DNA of 64,000 nt from Flavobacterium defluvii (lineage in GTDB: Bacteria; Bacteroidota; Bacteroidia; Flavobacteriales; Flavobacteriaceae). The notes beneath the pieces were generated by a model. It saw only the letters and a program-made list of their open reading frames with translations. It was not told where the DNA came from and ran no database searches. Where the stretch lies: NCBI RefSeq assembly GCF_900129555.1, contig NZ_FQWC01000002.1, forward strand, positions 558,001-622,000, written 5' to 3'. A program made the position numbers and the translations under genes. Numbering within the stretch: the stretch's first letter is position 1; each line of letters opens with the position of its first letter. This document shows positions 29,507-33,185 of the stretch, one piece after another.

Positions 29507-30292
29507 ATGAGCCAAGCTAAATCGTATGCCTTAATAACTGGAGCCAGCAAAGGAATTGGAAAATCTATTGCTTTTGAATTTGCCAAAAAGGGTTATCCGC
29601 TATTGCTAATTGCAAGAAGCGGCGAGGAATTAAAAGCATTATCTCAGGATCTTCAATTAAATTACAGCATAAATGCTCCTTTTTTATCAATTGATCTTTC
29701 GGAAAAAGAGGCATCTTTAAAAGTAACCAATTGGATAAAAATGAATAACTATCCGGTTGGTTTTTTAGTTAATAATGCCGGTTATGGTGTGTGGGGTGAT
29801 TTTAGTAAATCTTCTCTAAGCGATCAGCTTGGCATGATGCAGCTTAACATGAATGTAGTGGTAGAACTTTCACATTTATTAGTACCCATACTTTCACAAC
29901 AAAAACAAGCTTATATTTTAAATATATCCAGTACAGCAGCCTATCAGGCTGTTCCTACGCTCGCTGTTTATTCAGCTACAAAGGCTTTCGTTTTATCGTT
30001 TACCCGTGCTTTACGCTACGAACTTGCCCAAACTTCAATTTCGGTAACCTGTTTTAGTCCTGGCCCGGTTGATACTGGTTTTGCTTCTAGAGCTGGTTTA
30101 GATGCCCTTGGAAAAATGGCAGAAAAGTTTAATATGCAGCCAGATGAAGTTGCAAAAATGGCCGTAAAAGCTATGTTCAATAAAAAATCTGAAGTTATTC
30201 CGGGGTTTATAAACTTCATTTCTGTTTATGCTAATCGTATACTGCCAAAGGCATTTATAGAAAAAACAGCTGCCGGAATTTATAAAATTTAA
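29507..30292 (+). CDS. Short-chain dehydrogenase (ketoreductase-like)
   Basis: A 261-residue SDR with TGASKGIGKS for cofactor binding, NNAGYGVWG, a Ser in NISSTAAY and YSATKAF as the catalytic Tyr/Lys, plus SPGPVDTGF. It ends with an unusual tail, PGFINFISVYANRILPKAF, that resembles the membrane-associated ketoreductase branch (DltE/HSD-like) acting on fatty acyl or steroid-like substrates. It has its own -7-like element. It lies 82 bases before the poly-cysteine mini-gene on the same strand, so it may be functionally linked to that cassette. The substrate is unknown. Confidence 0.85.
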   Translation: MSQAKSYALITGASKGIGKSIAFEFAKKGYPLLLIARSGEELKALSQDLQLNYSINAPFLSIDLSEKEASLKVTNWIKMNNYPVGFLVNNAGYGVWGDFSKSSLSDQLGMMQLNMNVVVELSHLLVPILSQQKQAYILNISSTAAYQAVPTLAVYSATKAFVLSFTRALRYELAQTSISVTCFSPGPVDTGFASRAGLDALGKMAEKFNMQPDEVAKMAVKAMFNKKSEVIPGFINFISVYANRILPKAFIEKTAAGIYKI

Positions 30293-30322: not shown

Positions 30323-30350
30323 TTGTAAATAAGAAATTATATTACATTTA
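30323..30350 (+). promoter_or_regulatory. Predicted promoter of the poly-cysteine mini-gene
   Basis: TTG at 30323-30325, a 17-base spacer and TACATTTA at 30343-30350 resemble the Bacteroidota TTTG/TANNTTTG promoter, with one mismatch in the -7 element. A start point near 30357 would give a short leader to the ATG at 30375. No second promoter of this type was seen before the dioxygenase gene, so the following genes are probably in the same transcript. Confidence 0.5.
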
Positions 30351-30374
30351 CAATATCTACTAATTCGATAGAAT

Positions 30375-30467
30375 ATGTCTAATAAAAGAAATATGTTTGA
30401 TTTCCCTGAAAACAGAATACACGCAAGTATGCGAATGTATTGTTGTTGCTGTTGTTGCTGCTGCTAA
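30375..30467 (+). CDS. 30-residue peptide ending in eight consecutive cysteines
   Basis: The frame from the ATG at 30375 to the TAA at 30465-30467 encodes MSNKRNMFDFPENR, then a short Met/Arg/Tyr stretch, then eight Cys residues as the C-terminus (TGT/TGC codons mixed at 30441-30464). Mixed Cys codons mean that it is not a simple triplet repeat. It sits 51 bases upstream of a phytanoyl-CoA-dioxygenase-like gene and just downstream of a plausible promoter. It could be a metal-binding or lipidated peptide, a ribosomally made precursor with a leader and a Cys core, or a cysteine-sensing leader ORF. Poly-cysteine leader ORFs are known in mycobacteria. Too short for routine gene callers; translation is unproven. 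Confidence 0.6.
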   Translation: MSNKRNMFDFPENRIHASMRMYCCCCCCCC

Positions 30468-30518
30468 ACTTTTAGGTAAAATTTAAACTCTATTTTTCAT
30501 TTATTAAATCTATTTATC

Positions 30519-31322
30519 ATGGTATCTTATAAAACCTTTACACTTACTAATCAGTTAACTGATGAGCAAATCAACTTTTTTAACGAATATGGTTTCATCC
30601 ATTTCAAAAAATTCATAAATCCGGAAACTGTTTCATCAATAATCGATGCCTCAAAACAAGTCGAGCAAAAATGGATTGACAATGACGTTAAAAAAATAAA
30701 TGGTGTTCCAATTAAATATGGAAAAGATTTGGATGGTTCTCCTATTGTACAGCGTTTTGCTTTTATCAACCAACATCATCAAACTTTAAGTGGTCTTTTA
30801 CTTGACCCAAGACTGAATAGTTTATTGCAATTGGCAGGCGATGGCGCAAGGCTAGGTACTGAAGAAAAAGATGGAATGGTTTTTAATCATTATATCAATG
30901 GGCCTGAAAGTAAGTTTACTAAAATGGGCTGGCATACCGATGGTTTGAGGGATATTTTTTATGGTACAAAATTAAACCCAATGCTAAATGTTGGTATACA
31001 TTTAAGTACATTAAAACCCGAAAACGGCGGCCTTAAAATTATTCCGGGTACTCACAAGCAGAGTATTTACCAAATGCTTTTTAGAAAAAAATACTTTCTG
31101 GATCATAAAGCCGATTCGGAGGAAGTTTCCATCAATCCGGAGGCGGGAGATTTAACCATACACGATGGCCGTTTGTGGCACAGAGTTGCAGAATCATCTA
31201 TCCGTGGCGAAGAAAGCAGAAGGAGAGTTATTTATATTCCAATTATAGCAGGAAAATACGCTCCTAAAAATGAGAACAGCCCAACAGTTTTCTATCAACG
31301 TTTTGCCGGTATTGTTAAATAA
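30519..31322 (+). CDS. Phytanoyl-CoA dioxygenase (PhyH)-like Fe(II)/2-oxoglutarate enzyme
   Basis: The 267 residues contain the iron facial triad His139-x-Asp141 in MGWHTDGLRD and His221 in RLWHRVAES. The Arg cluster at 234-236 (SRRRVIYIP) is placed to bind 2-oxoglutarate. It has no signal peptide. PhyH-type enzymes hydroxylate small molecules or, in some pathways, peptides, lipids or antibiotics. Placement directly after the poly-cysteine mini-gene and before a CDP-alcohol phosphatidyltransferase suggests action on a lipid headgroup or on the peptide; both are inference. The catalytic residues look intact. Confidence 0.87.
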   Translation: MVSYKTFTLTNQLTDEQINFFNEYGFIHFKKFINPETVSSIIDASKQVEQKWIDNDVKKINGVPIKYGKDLDGSPIVQRFAFINQHHQTLSGLLLDPRLNSLLQLAGDGARLGTEEKDGMVFNHYINGPESKFTKMGWHTDGLRDIFYGTKLNPMLNVGIHLSTLKPENGGLKIIPGTHKQSIYQMLFRKKYFLDHKADSEEVSINPEAGDLTIHDGRLWHRVAESSIRGEESRRRVIYIPIIAGKYAPKNENSPTVFYQRFAGIVK

Positions 31323-31324
31323 TT

Positions 31325-31477
31325 ATGCTGTTTATTATTGCATTTAGTTATCTGGTTAGATCAGGTAAACTAAAAAGAACGACCGATTTTTTTAGAAATA
31401 CGCACGGAAAAATAAATTTTAAGATCAAAAAAATAGAATTGGCTATACTATTAGGCCTGCTAAAATTAGGGTATTAA
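31325..31477 (+). CDS. 50-residue small protein coupled to the phosphatidyltransferase gene
   Basis: An ATG two bases after the dioxygenase stop opens a 50-codon frame beginning MLFIIAFSYLVRSGKLK and ending LGLLKLGY. Its TAA overlaps the next ATG by one base (TAATG), the classical sign of translational coupling. It has a hydrophobic N-terminus, a basic middle and a hydrophobic C-terminal helix, so it is probably membrane-associated. No family is recognised. Tight packing on both sides supports a real gene. Confidence 0.6.
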   Translation: MLFIIAFSYLVRSGKLKRTTDFFRNTHGKINFKIKKIELAILLGLLKLGY

Positions 31478-32163
31478 TGAGAACAGAAACACAAGAAGAA
31501 GTTTATAGTACAATTGTGCAGAGAACATTTTCTGACCGTAAGCGAACCAATATCTTAAAAAGAGCAGAACAGTTAACGATTGTATTTTTACTTCCAAAAG
31601 TTCCTAAATTCATTTCGCCAAACGTACTTACTTTAATTGGTACACTTGGCTCGGGAGTAGTTTTTTTAGCTTTTGTTTTAGGGACTTATGCAACAAATTG
31701 GTATTTGCTTTTGGGTATTATTGGTTTGGCTGTAAATTGGTTAGGTGATTCTTTAGACGGAAGATTAGCGTATTATAGAAATACTCCGCGCCGCTGGTAT
31801 GGGTTTGCACTCGATATTATTGCCGATTGGATTGGTATTGTGCTTATAGGTTTTGGCTACTATATTTATGCTCAAAACGGCACACAAATAGTAGCTTTTG
31901 CTTTTGTCGCATTGTATGGATGGTCTATCATTATAAGTCAGTTACAATACAAAATTACAAATGAATACACTATAGATTCTGGCTTTGTTGGCCCAACAGA
32001 ACTAAGATTTATTATTGCGTTAATTTTAATTGCAGAAGTTTTATTTCACGGATCAATAACATATTTGGCTGGCTTAATCACCGTTGTTTTATTTATAATT
32101 AATACTATAGACAGCATAAAGCTTTTAAAATTAGGTGATTTAAAAGATAAAAATCAATACTGA
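31477..32163 (+). CDS. CDP-alcohol phosphatidyltransferase-like membrane enzyme with variant motif
   Basis: The 228 residues have about six membrane segments and the cytosolic family motif DSLDGRLAYYRNT, followed by GFALDIIAD. The consensus is D-x2-D-G-x2-A-R-x8-G-x3-D-x3-D. Here the Arg after Ala is Tyr and one extra residue lies before the Gly, but all four Asp are present, so catalysis is still plausible. Such enzymes join a CDP-activated alcohol to a second alcohol, as in phospholipid headgroup synthesis. The TAATG start and the downstream GtrA-like gene (1 base apart) place it in an operon. The substrate is unknown. Confidence 0.85.
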   Translation: MRTETQEEVYSTIVQRTFSDRKRTNILKRAEQLTIVFLLPKVPKFISPNVLTLIGTLGSGVVFLAFVLGTYATNWYLLLGIIGLAVNWLGDSLDGRLAYYRNTPRRWYGFALDIIADWIGIVLIGFGYYIYAQNGTQIVAFAFVALYGWSIIISQLQYKITNEYTIDSGFVGPTELRFIIALILIAEVLFHGSITYLAGLITVVLFIINTIDSIKLLKLGDLKDKNQY

Positions 32164-32164
32164 T

Positions 32165-32596
32165 ATGTTCAGGAAAAAATCTATTTTTACTTTTCTACAG
32201 GCACAAGTTGCGGCATTTATAGGCGGTATTACGGATTATGGCTTAATGATTTTATTAACAGAAGTATTCAAATTTCATTTTACTTTTTCTATTCTAATCT
32301 CCGGAACTGTTGGTGCAATTATCAATTTCAGCATCAATCGGTTTTGGGTATTTAAAAACCAGGCTGGTTACAGAAATCCTATTAATAGCCAGCTTTTTAA
32401 ATTTGCTTTGGTTGTATTAGGGAGCATTTCTTTAAAATCATTTGGTACACTTGTTTTGCAAAAAGTATTTCAAATCGATTATAAAATCGGAAGGTTAATC
32501 ACGGATAGTTTTGTTTCTTATGGCTTTAATTATCCACTAATTAAATATTGGGTTTTTAGGATAAATGAAAAGCAGAATATAATTGAATCCAATTAG
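32165..32596 (+). CDS. GtrA-like membrane protein
   Basis: The 143 residues form four membrane segments with the GtrA-family features LQAQVAAFIGGITDYGLM at the N-terminus and NFSINRFWVFKNQ between helices two and three. GtrA-type proteins are thought to move polyprenyl-linked sugars across, or otherwise assist transfer at, the inner membrane. The gene starts one base after the phosphatidyltransferase stop, so the pair is strongly coupled. It suggests that the lipid product made upstream is modified or flipped; this is inference. Confidence 0.85.
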   Translation: MFRKKSIFTFLQAQVAAFIGGITDYGLMILLTEVFKFHFTFSILISGTVGAIINFSINRFWVFKNQAGYRNPINSQLFKFALVVLGSISLKSFGTLVLQKVFQIDYKIGRLITDSFVSYGFNYPLIKYWVFRINEKQNIIESN

Positions 32597-32609
32597 AATA
32601 ATTTCGGTT

Positions 32610-33185
32610 ATGTACAAATTATCATTTAAATATCTTAGAAAATTACTAATCGTTATAACGATTTTAGTAAATATGATTTCTCAAAATTTATTGGCGCAAT
32701 CCAAAAATCCATCACCCTTAAATTTTCCGACACCTAAAAACATAGATAATATGCTGTTTTACGTTCAGCGGGACCCCAATATAAACACGGCTATTTATGC
32801 CCTAAATTATCAGGAAAATGGAAAAATAAACAAGAGCGATCCTATAAAAGCATATTGGATTCGATATGCCGAAAAAGGAGAAAAAAAAGATTTTAATTAT
32901 ATACAACGCAAATTTGCATATGGTATAGAAAGTAAAATCTTAAACAATGAAGAATTTGAATTTCAGTTTGTATCCTATAAAAAGTTACAATTAACCCTCA
33001 AAAAAATAGATTCAGATCAAAAATATCATGTTTTTGTAAATATAAACCAGAAAAGAATACAAGTAGAAAAAATATTTGTGCGTATTGAAGGAGGCTCTTT
33101 TTGGCTGCCCAACGTAAAGTATGTCGAAGTCACAGGAATTGATACTTCAAACAAAACCATTACCGAAAGAATACTATTAAAATAA
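32610..33185 (+). CDS. DUF4833-like exported protein
   Basis: The ATG at 32610 is chosen because it yields the signal-type start MYKLSFKYLRKLLIVITILV and the next genes do not overlap; an upstream TTG is possible. The 191-residue product has PLNFPTPKNIDNMLFYVQRD, then DPIKAYWIRYAEKGEKKDF and beta-rich segments to the end, the pattern of DUF4833. It is probably periplasmic. It closes the poly-cysteine/dioxygenase cassette. Function is unknown. Confidence 0.75.
   Translation: MYKLSFKYLRKLLIVITILVNMISQNLLAQSKNPSPLNFPTPKNIDNMLFYVQRDPNINTAIYALNYQENGKINKSDPIKAYWIRYAEKGEKKDFNYIQRKFAYGIESKILNNEEFEFQFVSYKKLQLTLKKIDSDQKYHVFVNINQKRIQVEKIFVRIEGGSFWLPNVKYVEVTGIDTSNKTITERILLK

Follow-up and report, generated by a model that had tools for sequence, protein, structure and literature searches.

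A conserved poly-cysteine leader ORF before a PhyH operon of Flavobacterium and Pedobacter, a candidate cysteine sensor of a proposed sulfur regulon

In a 64,000-nucleotide stretch of the Flavobacterium defluvii genome (RefSeq assembly GCF_900129555.1, contig NZ_FQWC01000002.1, positions 558,001 to 622,000; hereafter, the window), an easily overlooked 30-codon open reading frame (ORF) ending in eight cysteine codons stands directly before a gene for a PhyH-family Fe(II)/2OG dioxygenase. The ORF is conserved at related loci, its cysteine codons are under selection, and the DNA element in front of it recurs before sulfur genes that have Cys-rich leaders of their own. We read it, with a probability of roughly 0.75, as a cysteine-sensing upstream ORF (uORF) that would act on an operon of PhyH, CDP-alcohol phosphatidyltransferase, GtrA, and DUF4833 genes belonging to a sulfur regulon.

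Results

The leader ORF and its promoter region

The leader ORF lies at positions 30375-30467 of the forward strand (the strand of all features given here), translates as MSNKRNMFDFPENRIHASMRMYCCCCCCCC followed by a stop, and has homologues at the best 80 of 111 PhyH loci. Upstream of it is a promoter-like pair (30323..30350), recognized from the sequence and made up of TTG (30323-30325) and TACATTTA (30343-30350); the latter we take to be a -7 box of the Bacteroidota type (TAnnTTTG), and relatives have TACATTTG or TATCTTCG at the -7-like position. An operator-like element, CTACTAATTCGATAGA, follows at 30357..30372, near the expected transcription start, and the ORF begins 3 nt past its end. 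In the window, 24 nt separate the end of the -7-like box from the leader ATG, a distance that suggests a short 5' untranslated region (UTR) in the leader transcript.

The frame closes with ATG CGA ATG TAT (MRMY; 30429..30440) and, directly 3' of it, the Cys codons (30441..30464), a candidate ribosome stalling site. These read TGT TGT TGC TGT TGT TGC TGC TGC and, being mixed, do not form a pure trinucleotide repeat. A 51-nt spacer without an intrinsic terminator (30468..30518) separates the leader stop from the PhyH start. The leader peptide has no match in Pfam or NCBIfam, and at its gathering score Rfam matches neither the window nor locus L072. An earlier, sequence-only reading of this DNA had described the 30-codon frame with its eight terminal cysteines, the run that is no simple repeat, the promoter-like pair, the dioxygenase gene 51 bases downstream, and the absence of an attenuator hairpin; all of this agrees with the translation, the codon mixture, the TTG and TACATTTA boxes, the PhyH start at 30519, and a scan of the window that found no terminator at the leader.

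The PhyH operon and its neighbors

PhyH (30519..31322; Pfam PF05721, E value of 1.6e-17) is the first gene behind the leader; it is 92-94% identical in three relatives and has no sequence match in the PDB at an E value of 0.001. Among the best 80 of 111 loci, it is followed by a CDP-alcohol phosphatidyltransferase gene (31477..32163; PF01066) in 75, and genes for a GtrA-family membrane protein (32165..32596; PF04138) and a DUF4833 protein (32583..33185; PF16117, E value of 2.2e-47) are found in 75 and at least 61, respectively. These three genes are likely part of the PhyH operon. The SDR-family reductase gene on the other side of the leader (29507..30292), with an upstream SDR match in 77 of the same 80 loci, is a conserved neighbor outside the leader's control. 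By tblastn, the order SDR - PhyH - CDP-alcohol transferase - GtrA recurs in 72 of these 80 loci, a count that allows for variable spacing and intervening extra genes.

A 50-codon ORF without a Pfam or NCBIfam match lies between PhyH and the CDP-alcohol transferase gene of the window (31325-31477). At five loci (L180, L191, L197, L202, and L204), PhyH is 82-91% identical to that of the window, the SDR only 56-65%, and the CDP-alcohol transferase, where found, 59-62%; this steep divergence of the neighbors relative to PhyH could reflect either slow evolution of PhyH or transfer of the PhyH gene.

Conservation and taxonomic reach of the leader

A scan of named genomes that used only the PhyH alignment yielded 111 confirmed relatives, of which we retained the best 80; the retained loci belong to Flavobacterium (F. 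johnsoniae included), Pedobacter, and some records named to family only. The sequence-only reading had made its case depend on a homologous poly-Cys ORF beside this gene in related genomes, and a short upstream ORF with at least three consecutive Cys codons is present at all 80 of these best loci. An earlier query of six Cys codons against 60 relatives had detected the same ORF in two genomes of the same genus, there also between the SDR and PhyH genes (one locus inspected per matching genome besides the host's own).

In the 81 leaders formed by the window and the best 80 of 111 loci, the run extends over 3 to 9 Cys codons, which pool to 450 (273 TGT and 177 TGC). Sixty-three leaders terminate 41-58 nt short of PhyH; in the other 18, no stop follows the run, and the frame crosses the PhyH start and ends 43 nt inside PhyH. 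Such open-ended leaders (e.g., L127, L134, L143, and L179) overlap PhyH in another frame. The N-terminal half is genus specific (MSNKRNMFNFPK.. in Flavobacterium and MSNKTNLFYF.. in Pedobacter), and the residues DFPENR, for which conservation had been anticipated, are not conserved. What is conserved is the Met just 5' of the run (81 of 81 leaders, most commonly as ATG CGA ATG), together with the Cys codons: the four codons following this Met encode Cys in 66, 75, 79, and 77 of the 81. The first ATG is absent in some loci, which have a substitute ATG nearby, and one locus is reduced to MRMCCCCA.

Wider scans return few leaders. MRM[CY]CCC occurs in 3 of 397 genomes of the family, all from the window's genus, one of them the host itself, and of 15 PhyH places in 149 genomes of the class, 3 have the leader, again all in the window's genus. 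In the remaining 12, at 40-59% identity, the 300 nt upstream contain no ORF bearing a three-Cys run, which counts against the cysteine-sensing reading. Given the few matches in these scans and in that of the phylum (see below), the leader seems to belong to Flavobacterium and Pedobacter rather than to the whole phylum.

The host genome contains the pattern TGY TGY TGY TRA 58 times versus 14 times for the reversed control, an excess that we do not take as evidence because it consists mostly of frames without ATG: with identical tails merged, 40 of 49 Cys-stop frames lack an in-frame ATG and 9 have one. Among those 9, only the PhyH leader and one ORF before glutamate dehydrogenase lie within 100 nt of a long gene. 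The same two genes are the only ones with a strict Cys-tail small ORF (3 Cys in the last 8 residues) among 62 genes whose upstream gap is 100 nt or longer, taken from the window, L072, L073, and L104-L125.

Selection on the cysteine codons

To count substitutions, we applied the Fitch procedure to a tree of the 81 PhyH genes. Numbering from the codon right after the Met as index 0, the run's codons +1 to +4, which encode Cys in 75, 79, 77, and 56 of 81 leaders, show 12 changes at positions 1 and 2 combined versus 68 at position 3. For reference, the mean number of changes per site is 17.35 in the spacer and 12.8 at PhyH third positions. Positions 1 and 2 are thus held while third positions drift at about the rate of the spacer, which indicates that cysteine itself is selected; both the selection on amino acids and the third-position variation proposed from the sequence are therefore borne out for the Cys run. 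The codon at index 0 is looser (Cys in 66 of 81; 14 changes at positions 1 and 2 and 13 at position 3).

The Arg codon between the two Mets (30432-30434 in the window) is under extra constraint at the nucleotide level, here and in relatives: it is CGA in 63 of 63 cases of Arg, and its third position changes 3 times on the tree.

Genes sharing the operator-like element

Allowing up to 3 mismatches, CTACTAATTCKATAGAAYATG matches 5 sites in the host genome versus 0 for the reversed control. One of these is inside a long coding frame; the other four precede PhyH, glutamate dehydrogenase, an msrA-like/aminotransferase pair (the msrA-like gene recognized by its GCFWC motif), and a receptor-like gene. 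With one mismatch, CTAYTAATTCNATAGA is found at 65 places in eight named genomes reached by way of their loci versus 14 for the reversed control, and 6 of the 30 places that we inspected are inside genes. Of 247 genomes of the phylum, 13 contain the strict form, CTACTAWWTCTATAGA, at 20 places altogether versus 9 for the reversed control; all 20 were inspected, with 12 in the window's genus, 4 in one other genus, and single matches in four other genomes that fall within genes or repeats.

The element, often together with a Cys-rich leader, precedes genes for serine acetyltransferase (NF041874, above cut-off; TIGR01172, below cut-off), OAH/OAS sulfhydrylase (TIGR01326), sulfatase (PF00884), family 2A encapsulin (NF041162), TonB receptors, and glutamate dehydrogenase. 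The Cys leaders of such genes include ..TFCYMCSCC and MKTIANSMMMCCEMMQMCIPNCCYQK, each followed by a stop, and MKAFKNYSQSSCCCCKNNN..; some of these sister leaders require a TTG start, which we assumed. Visual inspection shows the element facing either way with respect to its gene and, in most cases, placed just past a -7-like box; in the glutamate dehydrogenase loci, it is upstream of that box. Both its orientations and its position near the box suggest that it is a DNA operator and not an RNA motif.

In the host and in F. johnsoniae CI04, we tallied 26 and 31 sites, respectively, with at most one mismatch (control, 11 each), using a loose definition of a Cys small ORF (2 Cys in the last 12 residues). 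Three of the six exact host sites have such an ORF (before PhyH, sulfatase, and a TonB receptor); the three without one, which we count against the cysteine-sensing reading, comprise two that precede genes and one with no gene near. In F. johnsoniae CI04, four of six exact sites have the ORF (PhyH, sulfatase, TonB receptor, and glutamate dehydrogenase), the other two being before an msrA-like gene, without a Cys small ORF, and inside a gene. Of the 45 one-mismatch sites of the two genomes, 30 are inside genes, and these look like chance matches.

Several element-bearing loci have features of their own. A family 2A encapsulin gene of the window's genus (L254:1501-1954) combines the element with a leader ending in ..TFCYMCFCR; in Synechococcus elongatus, a family 2A encapsulin is described as upregulated in sulfur starvation (PMC8346489). 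The host glutamate dehydrogenase gene (L068:1501-1869; host C10:58661 onward) has tandem Cys-rich leaders, MKNYVQNIIPFMCSLTMCCMSTRAMKWR and MRSNRNIHTMMHCCQTKIPCCMCCC, with a strong terminator between them. At the OAH/OAS sulfhydrylase regions L222, L255, and L291, the leader takes the form MKTIA..MMCC.MMQMCI..CC.QK, and L222 and L255 contain a terminator. In Pedobacter zeae (L221), a gene judged by eye to be DUF4833-like is preceded, at a distance of about 565 nt, by a separate copy of the element, and in Pedobacter paludis (L210 and L234), two copies 95 bp apart lie in repeated DNA beside a small ORF, MKNLILLNSDYCCCCCWIASIYC.

Possible modes of control

According to the reading that we prefer, a regulator probably binds CTACTAATTCGATAGA near the transcription start, and the leader would be translated; a shortage of Cys-tRNA-Cys would then stall ribosomes on the Cys run, and stalling would raise PhyH expression. 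For Flavobacterium, RNA modeling weakly favors translational control through occupied leader RNA: the 5' half of the leader may pair with the PhyH initiation region, which ribosomes queued behind the stall might hold open. Rho-dependent termination and interference between leader and PhyH translation are close rivals.

Folding was assessed in 56 Flavobacterium-type and 21 Pedobacter-type sequences, sets that leave out L197, L202, L204, and L205. Under one RNAalifold scoring of the 56, the 5' half of the leader pairs with the region before PhyH, with double changes at four pairs, in one or two sequences each; a standard run on another alignment, covering 40 of the 56, returned 0 pairs. In the 56, opening the PhyH start is predicted to cost 8.1 kcal/mol, a value that falls to 4.8 kcal/mol when the first 60 nt of the leader are shuffled (19 of 448 shuffles are as high) and to 3.9 kcal/mol with a train of stalled and queued ribosomes, while a single ribosome on the second Cys codon barely alters it (8.12 to 8.06). 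The 21 Pedobacter-type sequences show no such sequestration of the PhyH start, with 106 of 168 shuffles as high. As the sequences are related, these shuffle counts are not probabilities.

Three other structural candidates were rejected. By itself, the window leader is no more stable than its shuffles (z of -0.91), and a conserved fold of the whole leader is contradicted by structures that differ between the two genera as well as by the empty standard run. The Cys/stop region pairs with the PhyH start no more strongly than dinucleotide shuffles do (mean z of +0.55 in the 56 Flavobacterium-type, -0.37 in the 21 Pedobacter-type, and -0.01 in 4 other sequences). A local hairpin around ATGCGAATG has no clear support in either genus (mean z of -0.25 in the 49 of 56 Flavobacterium-type sequences matched by regular expression and -0.97 in 21 of 21 Pedobacter-type sequences).

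The position of the ribosome might instead set Rho-dependent, or undetected intrinsic, termination of transcription before PhyH, an alternative to which we give serious but minority weight. Two other leader families that share the element have strong intrinsic terminators past the first Cys ORF (6 of 6 glutamate dehydrogenase and 2 of 2 sulfhydrylase regions), and the absence of sequestration in Pedobacter calls for a mechanism there that is independent of structure. By analogy, hairpins are likewise missing from the mycobacterial cys leaders, for which Rho has been proposed (PMC1262725). The PhyH leaders themselves contain no convincing intrinsic terminator (weak terminator-like matches in 3 of 81, none in the window), and their spacer is short; of the 19 resolved sister leader regions, the remaining 11 have none, and one further region did not resolve.

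It is also conceivable, with nearly the same minority weight, that control is translational and free of structure, with leader ribosomes reaching or overrunning the PhyH start and there blocking or feeding initiation, an effect that stalling upstream would alter. The 18 frames that stay open past the run and end inside PhyH fit such interference, which requires no conserved fold and so suits both Pedobacter and the failed consensus fold; for the 63 leaders that stop short of PhyH, however, 41-58 nt is far for simple coupling.

A functional small protein, whether metal binding, lipidated, or the core of a RiPP modified by the neighboring dioxygenase, is improbable. The conserved Cys run does adjoin a dioxygenase gene, and the Met before it is kept, mostly as Met-Arg-Met, but the genus-specific N terminus, the MRMCCCCA locus, the run length of 3-9, and the long extra tail in 18 of 81 argue against a mature peptide or RiPP core; the 81 leaders show no combination of a conserved leader part and a core, as in a RiPP precursor, the protein family databases hold no match, and other Cys-ending ORFs sit before unrelated genes with the same element. 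Among the roles listed in the sequence-only reading, that of a cysteine-sensing leader is thus the supported one, backed by the sister leaders, the element, and selection, whereas metal cluster, lipidation, and RiPP core find no support. That the ORF is an untranslated chance frame over a conserved DNA or RNA element is highly improbable, since the CGA constraint would suit it but Cys third positions vary near the spacer rate with positions 1 and 2 held.

Discussion

Poly-Cys uORFs of mycobacteria were reportedly treated by Canestrari in 2020. As described by Shell in 2015 (PMC4633059), the Cys-rich uORFs of mycobacteria (that of cysA2 and others) are, like the PhyH leader, short conserved ORFs with a terminal Cys cluster; their targets are sulfur-related genes directly downstream. 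They are leaderless and actinobacterial, however, whereas the PhyH leader has an apparent short 5' UTR, an operator-like element, and other targets; unlike them, some PhyH leaders overlap the target gene, and the peptides appear dissimilar outside the Cys run. Given consecutive Cys codons near its end, its place directly upstream of a gene, and selection on these codons, the PhyH leader may work like the mycobacterial uORFs, a likeness of operation rather than established membership in one family. The actinobacterial cysteine leader peptides treated in PMC1262725 likewise have runs of Cys codons near the leader ORF stop, those of mycobacteria without a conserved terminator hairpin, but they precede cys and cbs operons, and the PhyH leader has another target.

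In Rhodobacterales, the uORFC-8-2 motif before cysS, for which tRNA-Cys sensing has been proposed (PMC8632094), is also a uORF with tandem Cys codons. It has two of them, within a two-stem attenuator that ends in a U run, whereas the PhyH leaders have no convincing intrinsic terminator before the gene of the kind that defines classical ribosome-mediated attenuation; the glutamate dehydrogenase and sulfhydrylase leader regions, with their terminators, are in this respect closer to uORFC-8-2. Within the same genus, leader-peptide attenuation before amino acid biosynthesis operons has been described for Flavobacterium psychrophilum (PMC9723704); the attenuation section of that paper names no cysteine leader, and PhyH is absent from its main text. 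Among the literature matches listed, there is no report of cysteine leaders in Bacteroidota. With cysteine-codon leaders known from Actinobacteria and Rhodobacterales, their occurrence in Bacteroidota suggests convergent use.

The tie of PhyH to sulfur is a candidate link that runs through the element it shares with clear sulfur genes bearing Cys leaders. Through this one DNA element, sulfatases, TonB receptors, cysteine synthesis, an encapsulin, and a lipid-type operon become a candidate coregulated set. With its CDP-alcohol transferase and GtrA genes, the PhyH operon itself might take part in lipid turnover when sulfur is scarce. Reductases of the type that acts on 3-ketocapnine are SDRs. 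For sulfonolipid synthesis, one such 3-ketocapnine reductase is known (PMC11211663).

More speculatively, and in our estimate rather doubtfully, Flavobacterium and Pedobacter may possess a two-layer sulfur regulon, in which a common operator near the transcription start is combined with independently shaped Cys-codon leaders on many targets, partly with terminators, partly without, and partly overlapping the target gene. The PhyH operon would then serve as a sulfur-sparing program, for example, in the remodeling or breakdown of sulfonolipids when cysteine is short. Tying this uncharacterized operon to sulfur supply makes its function testable.
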